Part shown: positions 18,604 through 24,624 of the stretch, piece after piece
Layout: every line of letters starts with the position of its first letter
How positions within the stretch are numbered: the stretch's first letter is position 1
The notes under the pieces: generated by a model
Databases searched by the model: none
Told to the model about the DNA's origin: nothing
The model's input: only the letters and a program-made list of their open reading frames with translations
Source of the DNA: Pseudomonadota bacterium
GTDB lineage: Bacteria; Desulfobacterota; Binatia; Binatales; Binataceae
NCBI GenBank assembly: GCA_021323945.1
Contig: JAJPKA010000020.1
Span: forward strand, 124,001 to 188,000
DNA: 64,000 bases
Reading direction: 5' to 3'
Program-made: the position numbers and the translations under genes

Positions 18604-20034
18604 ATGGCAGGGATGGCCTCAAATCAGTCCAAAACACCCGAGCCGTGTGGGGCCGACCCTCAGCGCCTCCGGCGTGCGCTACCCTCGATCGACCTGTGTC
18701 TGAGAACGGCATTAAACGACGCGCGTCTGCGCCATTTGGGACGAGCGTACTTGAAAGATCTGGCAAGACGCGTTCAGGCTCAGCTCAGGGCGAATCAAGC
18801 AGAGGAGGTCGAAGCCCCGACCAACCGCGAACAAAGACTTGGCCAAATCATCGAACAGATGGCGGCACTCGCTCTGTCCGACGAACCCAAGCTCTGCCGC
18901 GTGGTCAACGCAACTGGTGTCGTACTGCATACTAATCTTGGCCGCGCCTTGCTGGCTGAAGCCGCGATTGAAGCGGTAACGATGGCAGCAGCCTCGCCAA
19001 CTAACCTTGAATACGACCTCAGCAGTGGCTCGCGAGGCGACCGCGACACCATCATTGAGGATGAGCTCTGCGAGCTCACCCATGCCGAAGCCGCAACGGT
19101 GGTCAATAACAATGCAGCAGCCGTGCTGCTGGTCCTCAATACGCTGGCCGCAGGCCGCGAGGTAATCGTCTCGCGCGGGGAGCTGATCGAAATCGGCGGA
19201 TCGTTCCGATTACCGGATGTGATGCTTAGTGGCGGCGTGCGTCTTAGGGAGGTCGGCACCACGAATCGCACTCACCTCCATGACTACGAGAAGGCAATTG
19301 GCCCTGAGACGGCGCTGTTGTTGAAGGTTCATCCGTCGAATTACCGCATCGTTGGTTTTACCCACGAAGTGGGCATCGCGGAGTTGGCCGCGCTCGGCCG
19401 CCGTCACAACGTCGAGGTGGTCGAAGATCTCGGTTCCGGCGCTCTGATCGATCTGAGCCTTTATGGCATTGCCCGCGAGCCGATCGTAGGAGACAGTATT
19501 GCCGCCGGCGCGGGACTCGTCACCTTCTCCGGGGATAAATTGCTCGGCGGTCCCCAGGCAGGAGTCATTGTCGGGCGGCGTCAATTGGTCGAACGGCTAC
19601 GCCGCAGTCCGCTCAAGCGGGCACTTCGCTGTGACAAGATGACATTAGCGGCGCTGGAAGCTACTCTGCGTCTTTACAGGCGCCACGATGTGGAAAAAGC
19701 GCTGCCTACCCTTCGCTTTTTACGTCGTTCACTCGAAGAGATTCAGCTGGTTGCCGATCGCGGCCGCGTCACTCTACAGCGCCGTTTGCTCCCACAATTC
19801 AAGATCGATGTCACCGACGGAGAGTCGGAGATCGGCTCAGGCGCACTGCCGACGGTTCGGCTCAAGACCCGTGTGATCCGGGTCAGCCATCCCTCGATGT
19901 CGCCCGAGGCTATCGCAGCCATGTTTCGAAGGGCCCGGCCACCGGTGATTGGACGCATTAATGACGATGCTTTCCTCATCGACTGTCGAACGATCGAAGA
20001 TCCCGGGGTCCTGGAGGTGGAGTTCGCAAAATGA
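18604..20034 (+). CDS. selA: L-seryl-tRNA(Sec) selenium transferase
   Basis: A 476-residue PLP enzyme that converts seryl-tRNA(Sec) to selenocysteinyl-tRNA(Sec) using selenophosphate. The N-terminal region (residues 20-100) matches the SelA tRNA-binding helical domain. NATGVVLHTNLGRALL, the GTTNRT loop and TFSGDKLLGGPQAG (PLP lysine about 312) are diagnostic, and the length is normal for SelA. An alternative start at 18613 is possible. Its presence implies selenoprotein synthesis, although neither selB, tRNA-Sec nor a selenoprotein was recognised in this window. Confidence 0.93.
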   Translation: MAGMASNQSKTPEPCGADPQRLRRALPSIDLCLRTALNDARLRHLGRAYLKDLARRVQAQLRANQAEEVEAPTNREQRLGQIIEQMAALALSDEPKLCRVVNATGVVLHTNLGRALLAEAAIEAVTMAAASPTNLEYDLSSGSRGDRDTIIEDELCELTHAEAATVVNNNAAAVLLVLNTLAAGREVIVSRGELIEIGGSFRLPDVMLSGGVRLREVGTTNRTHLHDYEKAIGPETALLLKVHPSNYRIVGFTHEVGIAELAALGRRHNVEVVEDLGSGALIDLSLYGIAREPIVGDSIAAGAGLVTFSGDKLLGGPQAGVIVGRRQLVERLRRSPLKRALRCDKMTLAALEATLRLYRRHDVEKALPTLRFLRRSLEEIQLVADRGRVTLQRRLLPQFKIDVTDGESEIGSGALPTVRLKTRVIRVSHPSMSPEAIAAMFRRARPPVIGRINDDAFLIDCRTIEDPGVLEVEFAK

Positions 20035-20196: not shown

Positions 20197-20415
20197 ATGC
20201 CCGATAAAACGTACAAAATCATCGAAGTAGTGGGTGTTTCTGCAGAAAGCATCCACCAGGCCGTCCGTAACGCTATCGCAAAGGCTAGCCAGACCGTGCG
20301 CAACATTGACTGGTTCGAGGTGCAACAGATTCGGGGTGCCGTTCACAGCGGTCAACCTGAATTCCAGGTGGCCGTCAAAATCGGCTTTAGACTCGAGGGC
20401 CAGTCGGTGGTTTGA
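20197..20415 (+). CDS. Dodecin, flavin-binding storage protein
   Basis: A 72-residue protein of the dodecin family, which forms hollow dodecamers that bind flavins such as FMN, riboflavin or lumichrome, or CoA. It has the typical start KTYKIIEVVGVSAESI, the central helix VRNAIAKASQTVRNIDWFEV with the flavin-stacking Trp, and a last strand ending KIGFRLE. The ATG at 20197 is set by AGGAG six bases upstream; open frame extending further upstream is not part of the gene. It follows selA in the same direction after 162 bases. Confidence 0.93.
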   Translation: MPDKTYKIIEVVGVSAESIHQAVRNAIAKASQTVRNIDWFEVQQIRGAVHSGQPEFQVAVKIGFRLEGQSVV

Positions 20416-20598: not shown

Positions 20599-22203
20599 AT
20601 GAAAACCTGTCCGCGATGTGGCAAACAATATCCTGATACTGAAGGTTTTTGCGCGAACGACGGGACGGAGCTGATTGACGGTCCTGCTGCTGGGCGCGGA
20701 CGCCTGACCTCCCGTATGACTGAGCAGACCCATCCCGAGCAGAGTCTCGAGTGTCCGGTCTGCGGTGGCAAGGCACTTCCGGGCGAAGTCAGGTGTAATT
20801 TTTGCGGTGCTCGGTTGCGAGCGAGCGATGGAGAGCCGCAAGGTCCTGGAATCCCGACTGCATCCCGGAGTTTGAATCGGCAGCAGAATTTAAGCTTTCA
20901 GGGTTCGGATGAGACCTCACCAGAGCTGCCGGATACTGGGACGAGCAAAAGCAACCGTTTGGTCAAGATATTAGGTTTCTCCAGCGCGGCCATAGTGGCT
21001 CTCGCCGCTGGTGCCTGGCTCGCGGTTTATCTCAGCAAAGGTCAATCATTTCCCAAACCTCTGTCGACTCCGAGTGCAGCTTCGGCGGCACCGGTGGTCG
21101 AACTCGCCAATGACACTCCGATTCGAACTCAGGGCGACGCAGCCGGTACGATGCCACGTGAGATGAGCGACCTGCGAAAGGTCTTCGACGACAACAAGGC
21201 CGGCTTGACCAATGTCTACACGACCGCCCTCGGCACCGATCCCTCGATGGTGAACGGGATGGTGGTACGCCTGCACGTTCTGCCCGACGGTGGCGTTGAC
21301 AATGGCGCGGTTCGGATCTCGACCGCCGGCAACCCCAGTTTCGACGCGGAAGTGATCGAAGCTATGACTTCCTGGAAATTCCCTCCAGCCCCTGGTGGCG
21401 CCAGCGTTGAGTACCGCGTGATTTTCGCTCCTTCGGCAAGCGCCGCCGACGCTGCCGAGTCAAAGCTAGAAACCAAACTGGCGAGTCTTTCACCGGGTGA
21501 ACCCTCAGAATACGCCTTTTCACCTTCAGGCGCCATTGGACCTACGGTCGCTGAAGCCGGTCCGTCGCCTACGCCCGGTGCGGCAGCTGCGAGTGTATCT
21601 CCGGTGAGCGGCGGGGCCTTAACCAGCAGTCCGACTCCGTCGCCAGAACCGACGAGTCTCGCGGCGTTACCCACGGTGGAAGCGGCACCGTCTCCCTCGG
21701 GGCCGACAAAAATGAAGTCGCCACCTCCACGGGTACACCGCCATCGCCATGCCGGTCCCACCATCGCTGCGCTACCGCCGCCAAAGCCACCCTTGATCGA
21801 ACGTGTGAACAGTGAGTTGCGAGCCGATCGCAGACTGCGACGCGTTCAAGCTTACACCAACGGGTCGGTTGTAACGATCTTCGGCAAGGTGTTTGACGAC
21901 AAAGACCGTTTGCTCGCGGAGAAGACGGTAAAAAACATCGACGGTGTAAGCGCCGTAATCGACAATCTTACCACTGATACTCAGCAGTGGGCGCACAACC
22001 AAGCGCTAATCGAGCAAGCCCTTCAAAATGCCGGATTCGACAATGTTCGGGTGAAAGTGATCGGCAATGACGCTTACCTAAGTGGGCAGGTCAAGACTGA
22101 ACTCGACCGTGAACGGGCGGTTACCGTGGCCCAATCGGCGGCCCCAGTTAAGGTGCGGGAAAATCTGATCACTGTCGCGATCGGCAACGTATTGGGTTTT
22201 TGA
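20599..22203 (+). CDS. Zinc-ribbon, single-span membrane protein with TonB-C-like and BON domains
   Basis: A 534-residue multidomain protein with no named homologue that I recognise. The cytoplasmic N-terminus has two zinc-ribbon motifs: CPRCGKQYPDTEGFC (residues 4-18) and CPVCGGKALPGEVRCNFCG (52-70). One membrane span lies at about 121-146 (VKILGFSSAAIVALAAGAW). The outer part starts with a TonB-C/AgmX-like fold (residues about 190-275, GMVVRLHVLPDGGVDNGAV and MTSWKFPPAPGG), then a Pro/Ser/Thr-rich linker. Two tandem BON domains follow (about 395-460 and 465-530; GSVVTIFGKVFDDKDRLLAE and DAYLSGQVKTELDRE). Gliding/motility and outer-membrane linking proteins share this TonB-C type; BON domains bind envelope lipids or peptidoglycan. 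An envelope-spanning role is inferred. Confidence 0.8.
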   Translation: MKTCPRCGKQYPDTEGFCANDGTELIDGPAAGRGRLTSRMTEQTHPEQSLECPVCGGKALPGEVRCNFCGARLRASDGEPQGPGIPTASRSLNRQQNLSFQGSDETSPELPDTGTSKSNRLVKILGFSSAAIVALAAGAWLAVYLSKGQSFPKPLSTPSAASAAPVVELANDTPIRTQGDAAGTMPREMSDLRKVFDDNKAGLTNVYTTALGTDPSMVNGMVVRLHVLPDGGVDNGAVRISTAGNPSFDAEVIEAMTSWKFPPAPGGASVEYRVIFAPSASAADAAESKLETKLASLSPGEPSEYAFSPSGAIGPTVAEAGPSPTPGAAAASVSPVSGGALTSSPTPSPEPTSLAALPTVEAAPSPSGPTKMKSPPPRVHRHRHAGPTIAALPPPKPPLIERVNSELRADRRLRRVQAYTNGSVVTIFGKVFDDKDRLLAEKTVKNIDGVSAVIDNLTTDTQQWAHNQALIEQALQNAGFDNVRVKVIGNDAYLSGQVKTELDRERAVTVAQSAAPVKVRENLITVAIGNVLGF

Positions 22204-22413: not shown

Positions 22414-22746
22414 ATGTCTGACACACCAAGCTCGTGCAAACAAGTATTCGAACAAATGCCTGGGCGTTTTAAGAAAGAGGCGGCCCAGGGTCTGAATGTC
22501 GTCTATCAGTTCGATTTATCGGGCGAAGGTGGCGGGACGTGGCAGGTCATCATCAACAACGATAAGTGCGAAGTCAAGGAGGGTTCGGACCGGTCGCCAA
22601 ATACGACTATTTCGATGGCCGCTCAAGACTATCTTGACATGGTCAATGGGAAGTTGAATCCGCAGATGGCATTTATGAGCGGCAAACTCCGTATCTCAGG
22701 AGACATGGGTCTGGCGTTAAGGATACAGAGCTTGTTCGGCGAATAG
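22414..22746 (+). CDS. SCP2 sterol-binding domain protein
   Basis: A 110-residue single-domain protein of the SCP-2 family. It runs from FEQMPGRFKKEAAQGL through YQFDLSGEGGGTWQVII and TTISMAAQDYLDMVNGKLNP to MAFMSGKLRISGDMGLALRI, the standard SCP2 sequence order with the MSGKLRISGD core. The domain is a hydrophobic pocket binding lipids, acyl-CoAs or sterol-like molecules. An AGGAGG ribosome site lies 13 bases upstream of the ATG. It may act in lipid or acyl-CoA handling, in keeping with the CoA-transferase genes nearby, but there is no direct link. Confidence 0.93.
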   Translation: MSDTPSSCKQVFEQMPGRFKKEAAQGLNVVYQFDLSGEGGGTWQVIINNDKCEVKEGSDRSPNTTISMAAQDYLDMVNGKLNPQMAFMSGKLRISGDMGLALRIQSLFGE

Positions 22747-23032: not shown

Positions 23033-23314
23033 ATGAGTTCGCAGGATCCTAGTAGGGGTACGTCCCGCCAAGCTGGACTTCCAGGTGCTGCTGAGCGCGA
23101 TGACGCTGTGGCAACAAAACTTTCAAAGGAATTAAACAATTGGCGCCGTAAGCGGAACTCCGGGAGGGCAAGACGCAATGACGGAGAGCGCGACGGTTAT
23201 CAGACAGCGTCAGCACGGACGATCAAGTTGAAGGGCCATGAAACGCTCGTGGTTCGCAAGCTTAAACACCTGAAGCCAGCCCCCAACCAACAGCAAAATC
23301 CGCAAAACGTTTAA
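23033..23314 (+). CDS. Small basic hypothetical protein
   Basis: A 93-residue, highly charged protein, rich in Arg/Lys/Asn/Gln and with no hydrophobic segment, so probably soluble and disordered or nucleic-acid binding. Notable stretches are ELNNWRRKRNSGRARRNDG and LVVRKLKHLKPAPNQQQNP. The ATG at 23033 is preceded by AAAGGA at suitable spacing. I do not recognise a family. It could be a small ribosome-, RNA- or DNA-associated protein, or a spurious frame. It is convergent with the lolC-like gene. Confidence 0.4.
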   Translation: MSSQDPSRGTSRQAGLPGAAERDDAVATKLSKELNNWRRKRNSGRARRNDGERDGYQTASARTIKLKGHETLVVRKLKHLKPAPNQQQNPQNV

Positions 23315-23371: not shown

Positions 23372-24624
23372 TTACGAGCGGAGCACCTCGACGGGCATTT
23401 GGCGTGTGGCCTGCCGAGCGGGGTAAAGCGTTGCCAACCAACAGAGCACGATCGACGCTACAGCCACGATCACAAAGTTCAATGGATGAATTGCGATCGG
23501 TAAGGTCGAAATTCCGTAGATTCGCTTTTCGATGTGAATAAAGTGGTAATGGGCCAGTAGCCAGCAGCCGAGCGCGCCTGAGAGCAAGCCCGCGGCAGTA
23601 CCAACGCTGCCGACGATCAAGCCCTTGAAAACAAACACCCGCCGCACATCGGCAACGCTAGCGCCCATACTGCGCAGTATCGCGATGTCCTTGCGCTTCT
23701 CCATGACCACCATGATGAGGATGGCAACGAGGTTGAAGGCAGCAACGCCGATGAGCATCAACAAAACCAGTGCATAAACCCTTTTGAGCATCTCGAAACC
23801 GGCGGCCGCGGCTTCGTTGAACTCTTTCCAATTTGCCACGCGGTACGATTTGCCGAACATCGCTCTAAGCCGCGCAGTCACGCGATCAGTTTGCTCGAGA
23901 TCGAACAGCCGGACTTCGATGCCGTCGACGCGTCCTTCGCGGCCAAAGAACCTTTGTGCACTGCTTAGACTTAATAAAACCAGGCTGCGATCCACGAACG
24001 CTATTCCCGACTCAAATATTGCGCCGACAGTGAAGTGTGCGGTTCTCGTGGTGAGCTCGCCTTGACTGCCGGCAACAATCGGCACAATCAAGGTGATAGT
24101 ATCGCCCGCCTTGACCTTCAGCTTTTCGGCGAGAGTTGACCCCAGGGCAACATCTGCCGCAAATGACTCCGCTTGAGCCGGCGTGAGGCCGGCAGGATCG
24201 TTTTTCGCCAGCGCATCGATCGAGCCCTGCAGAATGTATGGGCGCAGTTTGGAAACTACGGTTGCGCCTCCAGGCTCAACACCCCGCAGGATTACGCTGC
24301 TGATCCCGTGAGCTGACGCCGCCATTCCTTGTCCAATGACGAACGGATCCGAGCCGGCTACGCCTGGTACGGTATTGGCTCGAGCCTCGATATCTGTGTA
24401 ATTCTCAATCGATCCGTTGTAGCTTTGAATTTCAACCTGGGGGGTTAGCTTAAGATTCTTTGGCGAAGACTGGCCTCGAAGCCTGCCATCACTGCCAGGA
24501 CAATCACAAGGGCCGCCACGCCTAGCATCACCCCGACCACAGTGAAAATAGTCGTGATCGAAATGAACGCGTCACGCCGACGCGCGCGCAGGTAGCGGAG
24601 AGCAATCTTGAGTTCGTACTGCAC
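23372..24624 (-). pseudogene. LolC/LolE-type lipoprotein-release permease, one-base frameshift
   Basis: Reading from GTG at 24624 gives a normal LolC start: YELKIALRYLRARRRDAFIS, then the first membrane span TTIFTVVGVMLGVAALVIVL. The frame breaks after RQRILS near 24450, where one base appears to be missing; a shifted frame continues as LTPQVEIQSYNGSIENYTD and then intact to the end. The intact part has the MacB-like periplasmic domain and the FtsX domain with ILIMVVMEKRKDIAILRSMG and the final spans. LolCDE moves lipoproteins off the inner membrane and is normally essential, so this is either a redundant copy, a true lesion or an assembly error. LolD is not adjacent. Confidence 0.75.

Follow-up and report, generated by a model that had tools for sequence, protein, structure and literature searches.

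The window analysed here, a 64,000 nt stretch of DNA from a member of the Binataceae, encodes a protein of 534 residues in which two putative zinc ribbons, a membrane span, a TonB-C/AgmX-PglI domain, a Pro/Ala-rich linker and two BON domains follow one another from the N to the C terminus. It is a real, conserved protein that in its full form is seen only in the Binataceae, and its domain architecture is far beyond chance. On balance we think it probable that it is a bitopic inner-membrane scaffold of the ZitP/AgmX (GltJ) kind, bearing a dual-BON tip on an arm that would extend far across the periplasm. In its own genome (G000; an assembly of 3.74 Mb in 22 contigs) the gene lies at 144599-146200 of a 937-kb contig (C8), and its parts, by window position, are as follows.

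20599..22203, + strand: whole open reading frame, 534 aa, ATG start, aligned with 29 further orthologues of more than 490 aa
20599..20676, + strand: putative zinc ribbon 1, residues 1-26, CxxC-x10-CxxD; Zn_Ribbon_1 just under cut-off, ligands in 30/30
20746..20820, + strand: putative zinc ribbon 2, residues 50-74, CxxC-x10-CxxC; DZR in 23/26 members, ligands in 29/30
20959..21036, + strand: single membrane span, residues 121-146, by hydropathy, with a small-residue ladder A130-A134-G138-A142 that is invariant in 26/26
21160..21435, + strand: TonB-C/AgmX-PglI domain, residues 188-279, and after it a helix that runs to about residue 296; by NF033768, model and fold
21517..21789, + strand: Pro/Ala-rich linker, residues 307-397, 24% Pro, by composition; pLDDT <50 over most of it
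21799..21975, + strand: BON domain 1, 34.1 bits against a cut-off of 27, and by fold
22003..22179, + strand: BON domain 2, 32.9 bits; W464, which starts helix 1, is invariant in 30/30

This order of domains is the one given in the original prediction, and profiles, hydropathy and alignment agree that it was right; in the domain searches that it had proposed, BON, the AgmX/PglI C-terminal domain and TonB (TIGR01352) all scored over their cut-offs. Its further statement that no named family has this order also held, since none with ribbons, span, TonB-C domain, linker and BON pair was found in the NCBIfam, Pfam or PDB sequence searches or in the literature, where the search gave no paper joining a zinc ribbon with a BON domain. 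A BON domain, a zinc finger and TonB were met together only in one annotation survey of Haemophilus, as far as its available text goes; the words 'TonB', 'zinc' and 'fused' are absent from the main text of a review of BON proteins (PMC11747388); and the available portion of Table 1 in the DolP paper (PMC7806268) lists secretin, CBS, OmpA, mechanosensitive channel, forkhead and other partners of BON, with neither zinc ribbon nor TonB among them. The single domains are all known already, and it is their combination that is without a name in the libraries searched. The full-length AF2 model, built from three sequences, is at its best in the BON pair, fair in the TonB-C domain, and poor overall (mean pLDDT 54.7, pTM 0.30), so that we make no structural claim for the zinc ribbons or the linker.

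Both ribbon profiles fall under their cut-offs in the Pfam scan of the window protein (Zn_Ribbon_1 24.3 bits against 25, DZR 18 against 27.3), and at E <= 0.001 DZR is matched in 23 and Zn_Ribbon_1 in 12 of the 26 orthologues scanned. The ligands of ribbon 1, C4-C7-C18-D21, are invariant in all 30 aligned sequences, the fourth being Asp, which refines the original prediction; those of ribbon 2, C52-C55-C66-C69, are kept in 29 of the 30, the exception (L072) having no ribbon 2. Going by this conservation of ligands both ribbons are putative zinc binders, and they are predicted to lie on the cytoplasmic side. Within its own genome ribbon 1 is the sole match at E < 0.01.

Prediction of topology, also called for previously, gave one hydrophobic span in the window protein at about residues 121-146, matched by a helix at residues 118-147 of the AF2 model; hydropathy was computed for four of the 30 sequences. 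The span is notable for its small residues, with A130, A131, A134, G138 and A142 invariant in all 26 sequences compared. With two Lys/Arg within the 20 residues on either side of it, the topology of the window protein is not fixed by charge; in three relatives the corresponding counts are 2/0, 2/1 and 6/2, and it is in these three only that an N-inside arrangement is favoured. The orientation of the protein is thus assumed from the types of domain that it carries.

The domain that follows the span is recognized by several profiles. NF033768 (AgmX/PglI C-terminal) scores 44 bits against a cut-off of 40 and also matches 26/26 orthologues at E <= 0.001, and TIGR01352 (TonB) scores 34.3 bits against 27.1; Pfam TonB_C reaches 23.4 against 24.6 in the protein scan and 26.5 bits, over the cut-off, for the same stretch in the genome search, and is matched in 14 of the 26 orthologues (E <= 0.001). 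Folded alone, the domain gave a model of mean pLDDT 86.7, for which the first 23 rows of the VIA comparison are all TonB, TolA, FusB or HasB, the best with Z 8.0 over 100 aligned residues at an rmsd of 2.6 Å; 19 of these rows have Z >= 5.2, and unrelated rows begin at Z 4.2, tying with the last few. Foldseek gave no match to this model at E <= 0.001, with TonB and TolA at the top of its results (best E 5.8e-3).

Such a fold, together with the Pro-rich linker and the invariant small-residue face of the span, would suit an energised transducer of the TonB/TolA type, driven by a motor of the ExbBD or TolQR type and pulling on an outer-membrane partner, and the genomes would furnish the other components, since ExbD is matched in 54/54 and the plug domain of TonB-dependent receptors in 33/33. 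The genome that carries the window, however, encodes TonB_C in three further proteins, of which two are close to ExbD (C15 334406/335625 and C11 76411/77289) and the third lies about 3 kb away from a plug domain (C8 785593/788798), and none of its four ExbD matches is on the 937-kb contig C8 of the ribbon-BON gene; for these reasons the transducer is the less likely reading. In addition, the TonB-C domain of the ORF is internal rather than terminal, and the His motif that TonB has in its membrane core is missing, there being no His in columns 121-143 of any of 26 spans and a His at 144, near the periplasmic end, in 17 of the 26. We regard this kind of energy transduction as rather unlikely here.

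The BON pair, at residues 401-527, gives two Pfam BON matches (E 5.2e-15, 55.9 bits, cut-off 27) that recur in 26/26 orthologues at E <= 0.001. With the full-length model Foldseek found seven chains at E <= 0.001, which are dual-BON proteins (OsmY, DolP and BonA) and the BON-like parts of CdsD/YscD. In the VIA comparison the same model matched OsmY (Z 10.9, 131 aligned, rmsd 20.0, 23% identity), CdsD (Z 9.8, 126 aligned, 20.1 Å), Neisseria DolP (Z 9.2, 120 aligned, 7.4 Å), BonA (Z 8.5, 124 aligned, 9.0 Å) and Escherichia coli DolP (Z 8.5, 129 aligned, 5.9 Å); the large rmsd values are taken to mean that the placement of the two domains in the model probably differs from that in the known structures. 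The VIA rows obtained with BON1 alone (MamM and others, Z about 7) were treated as a common arrangement. The second BON domain of DolP binds anionic phospholipid, according to the available text of PMC7806268. The corresponding contact in DolP is W127, in helix 1 of its BON2. W464 in helix 1 of BON2 of the window protein, invariant in the 30 sequences, falls two residues away from the register of W127 when the two are compared by eye, and the idea that it is a proven lipid contact of the DolP type was dropped on that account; a PDB search, which did not return DolP, gave no help.

The distribution of the gene is narrow and, within its range, nearly complete. An orthologue was matched in 34 of 35 genomes from the same genome, genus and family, the exception being G012. 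In a search of the class (148 genomes, 36 of which, having no match, are absent from the listing) a match was obtained for 40 of the 41 listed genomes that belong to the family, 31 of them as a single stretch running from position 1 to at least position 511 of the 513-position model. Among the remaining nine, G008 is without ribbon 2, three (G014, G016 and G027) have longer proteins that were reported as two stretches, and in five (G010, G029, G033, G071 and G073) the end of a contig splits or truncates the gene. No genome listed outside the Binataceae matched over the whole model, the best being G037 (E 1.6e-15, positions 306-501). All seven genomes that matched at E <= 1e-20 in a sample of 395 from the phylum are Binataceae, and a scan of 84,980 species' genomes with short peptide patterns, a method limited to close relatives, yielded two loci (L007 and L008), the former of which ('Candidatus Binataceae bacterium') is the nearest named relative at 63% identity.

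Alignment of 30 sequences, comprising the window protein and 29 loci from the 35 family genomes, shows that the folded parts are conserved and the N-terminal and Pro linkers variable. The genomes dropped from the 35 were G012 (no match), G010, G029 and G033 (fragments at contig edges) and G024 (no long stretch taken), and the alignment of 26 sequences used for the counts of 26 leaves out L043, L045, L065 and L077. Compared with L007 the gene has dN 0.278 and dS 2.603, a ratio of 0.107, which indicates purifying selection only roughly, since dS is near saturation and is undefined for four of seven separate segments. Three longer orthologues (L039, L045 and L078) appear by eye in the alignment to have a third BON domain. 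Some Binataceae also have shorter proteins (L049-L055) with a BON pair that matches the family and, by eye, a hydrophobic stretch near the start.

Proteins of related but different make-up are found in other families of the class; their architectures were assigned with our own profiles and with Pfam for six of them, the spans being judged by eye. L111 has one ribbon, a TonB-C domain and an SH3-like end, and L118 has the same parts but with two ribbons; in L121 two ribbons are followed by a coiled stretch and SH3. L112 combines a TonB-C domain (by our profile only) with SH3, and in L109 a single BON domain comes after two ribbons and an SH3-like stretch; by eye, L113-L116 resemble L112 and L122-L124 resemble L121. 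SH3_3 is over the Pfam cut-off of 27 in L112 (36.7) and L121 (31.3) and under it in L109 (18), L111 (26.2) and L118 (26.9); BON in L109 scores 25.3 against 27, and TonB_C in L111 and L118 scores 23.6 and 21.6 against 24.6. Domains of the SH3_3 type usually bind the cell wall, and since L111, L118 and L121 end in SH3-like stretches and L109 in an SH3-like stretch with BON, the BON pair takes the place of what is likely to be a wall-binding module. From these sequences there seems to be a common design, of a cytoplasmic reader, a span, a periplasmic arm and an envelope-binding end, in which the ends may be swapped. A BON pair was also seen at the C terminus of an AAA ATPase, ExeA-like by reading, at L127 1899-3623 (- strand).

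One of these relatives raises the question of signalling. At L133 (3053-10287), in another family of the class, a protein with ribbon, span, TonB-C domain and SH3-like end belongs to a run of genes that also encodes two protein kinases, an FHA protein, a phosphatase of the SpoIIE type and a CsgG-like lipoprotein, and a ribbon like ribbon 1 starts L125, by eye a Ser/Thr kinase. The window protein might by analogy be a transmembrane member of a Ser/Thr-kinase pathway, its ribbons binding kinases or being phosphorylated by them while the periplasmic part senses the envelope. Against this, a second locus of the same family (L134) encodes a CsgG-like lipoprotein, 33% identical, and a scan of three of its proteins showed no kinase, nor was a kinase found among six neighbours in the window, the permease orthologue and three proteins of L061. 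A role in such a pathway therefore seems to us unlikely.

The gene order in the window is SelA, dodecin, the ribbon-BON gene, an SCP2-type protein and a small basic protein; beyond these, the opposite strand encodes a MacB/FtsX permease and a CoA transferase. A search for conserved neighbours, suggested at the outset, found SelA, SCP2, the small protein and the permease each in 25/29 loci and dodecin in 18/29, as set out below.

18604..20034, + strand: SelA (PF03841), upstream in 25/29 loci
20197..20415, + strand: dodecin (PF07311), start taken from homologues, upstream in 18/29 loci
22414..22746, + strand: SCP2-type lipid-binding protein (PF02036), next gene downstream in 25/29 loci
23033..23314, + strand: small basic protein without a Pfam match, present in 25/29 loci
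23372-24624, - strand: MacB/FtsX permease, scanned as its L007 orthologue, present in 25/29 loci

Four loci lack matches to the SCP2, small-protein and permease genes; two of them (L047 and L045) end less than 200 bases downstream, and the other two (L067 and L039) have DNA there with no match. The recurrence of these three genes, and the binding of anionic phospholipid by the dual-BON protein DolP (PMC7806268, in its available part), could point to a lipid-handling system composed of the window protein, the SCP2-type protein and the MacB/FtsX-type permease. We consider this improbable, since the synteny is unspecific, SelA and the CoA transferases being conserved too, the gaps to the next genes downstream are about 210 and 290 bases, and the permease is on the opposite strand. 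More generally, the whole block is syntenic and its genes say little about function, and functional linkage argued from synteny alone was dropped for that reason. Within the block, the small basic protein (23033-23314) has the motifs KLSxxL, WRRxR and ARTIKxxGHETLVxRK in 17 aligned sequences, and the permease, a single frame in L007, occupies two frames in the window that overlap at about 24340-24454, a frameshift or an assembly error. SelA is syntenic in 25/29 loci, yet there is no tRNA gene in the window, and no RNA family scored over its gathering score between 15000 and 30000.

In the bitopic scaffold that we favour, the tandem ribbons would dock a protein partner in the cytoplasm, as the ribbon of ZitP does with PopZ, the span would pack on another helix through its invariant A130-A134-G138-A142 face, and the TonB-like domain would bind a periplasmic or envelope partner. 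The flexible linker would let the BON pair reach and attach to the outer membrane or the peptidoglycan, much as DolP and BonA are found at the outer membrane, so that the protein as a whole would be an organiser placed on the cytoplasmic side, tethering or positioning components of the envelope. The original prediction had offered two roles, the carrying of a cytoplasmic signal to the envelope and the anchoring of an outer-membrane complex; the anatomy allows both, and anchoring or scaffolding fits it better. A minor possibility is control from the inside out, in which zinc or a cytoplasmic partner at the ribbons would set the grip of the TonB-like and BON domains on the outer membrane or wall. 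If that were true, this would be a lineage-specific envelope tether under cytoplasmic control, whose heads, BON or SH3, would have been swapped from one family of the class to another. In our judgement a physical link from the cytoplasm to the outer envelope is known for only a few proteins, and this one is near-universal in the genomes sampled from a family of which hardly any member, if any, is in culture. Zinc-ribbon, TonB-like, BON and SH3-like modules appear to be exchanged among envelope proteins, and the protein may give a handle on envelope organisation in the Binatota.

Several known systems share parts of this anatomy. The tandem BON fold is common to DolP, OsmY and BonA; of these, going by the available descriptions, OsmY is a periplasmic protein and the other two are lipoproteins of the outer membrane, whereas the BON pair of the window protein is tied to a span and to ribbons of a cytoplasmic type. 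BonA is a decamer, and in the available text of PMC8406262 its authors propose that it is large enough to bridge membranes. The inner-ring proteins of type III secretion, SctD/YscD/CdsD, are also alike, in that CdsD and YscD were found by the fold searches with the window protein. These proteins have a recognition domain, one span and periplasmic BON-like domains, the recognition domain being of the FHA type rather than zinc ribbons, and they have no TonB-C domain; no secretion gene was found among the window neighbours scanned.

ZitP of Caulobacter crescentus is bitopic, and its cytoplasmic N-terminal zinc ribbon binds PopZ while its periplasmic domain recruits CpaM (PMC5182063, in the part available). 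By sequence and model the window protein likewise has zinc ribbon, one span and a periplasmic part; the two differ in the ribbon, which is CXXC-x19-CXXC in ZitP and CxxC-x10-CxxD/C here, and in the periplasmic region, which is DUF3426 in ZitP and TonB-C with BON here. DUF3426 is not among the Pfam matches of the window protein up to E 1, and PopZ (PF10691) was found in none of 20 genomes, 12 of them Binataceae, with a positive Caulobacter control, so that identity with ZitP is ruled out.

The gliding proteins of Myxococcus xanthus are the remaining comparison. GltG/PglI has an FHA domain at its N terminus and shares the span and TonB-C/AgmX-PglI domain with the window protein, for which GltG identity was rejected (NF033760, 34.6 bits against a cut-off of 650, at the C-terminal end only). 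GltG is over its cut-off in none of 33 genomes and partially matched in 29 of them, mostly in the N-terminal (FHA) half, the only C-terminal match in the window's own genome being the window protein itself. A component of a Glt/Agl-type gliding motility machine is suggested by the AgmX/PglI C terminus, the best curated domain match, by the N-terminal zinc finger that AgmX also has (PMC5182063, as above) and by tandem ExbD genes at G000:C11:48538-49360 (L143 8470-9481), which follow a gene of about 220 aa reading as ExbB/TolQ in what reads as an AglRQS-like order. Beyond the lack of a GltG over its cut-off, four genomes (G002, G003, G017 and G027) carry the ribbon-BON protein yet have two ExbD matches each, on different contigs, and with no tandem ExbD there an obligatory AglRQS-like motor is ruled out; moreover, the two Arf-type GTPase matches in the window's own genome are in frames of 342 and 1070 aa, which are too long for MglA, a shorter protein. 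A part in gliding is thus very improbable. GltJ has a GYF domain and binds MglA.

AgmX/GltJ resembles the window protein in combining a zinc finger at the N terminus with a membrane span and a TonB-C/AgmX-PglI domain. Available parts of the literature describe its zinc finger as related to that of ZitP (PMC5182063) and deal with the N-terminal domain and span of AgmX/GltJ and GltG (PMC3169522; for GltJ/AgmX also PMC8262864). The window protein differs from AgmX/GltJ in its two ribbons, its internal TonB-C domain and its added BON pair, and the known counterparts of the N-terminal two thirds of the ORF are AgmX/GltJ and ZitP.
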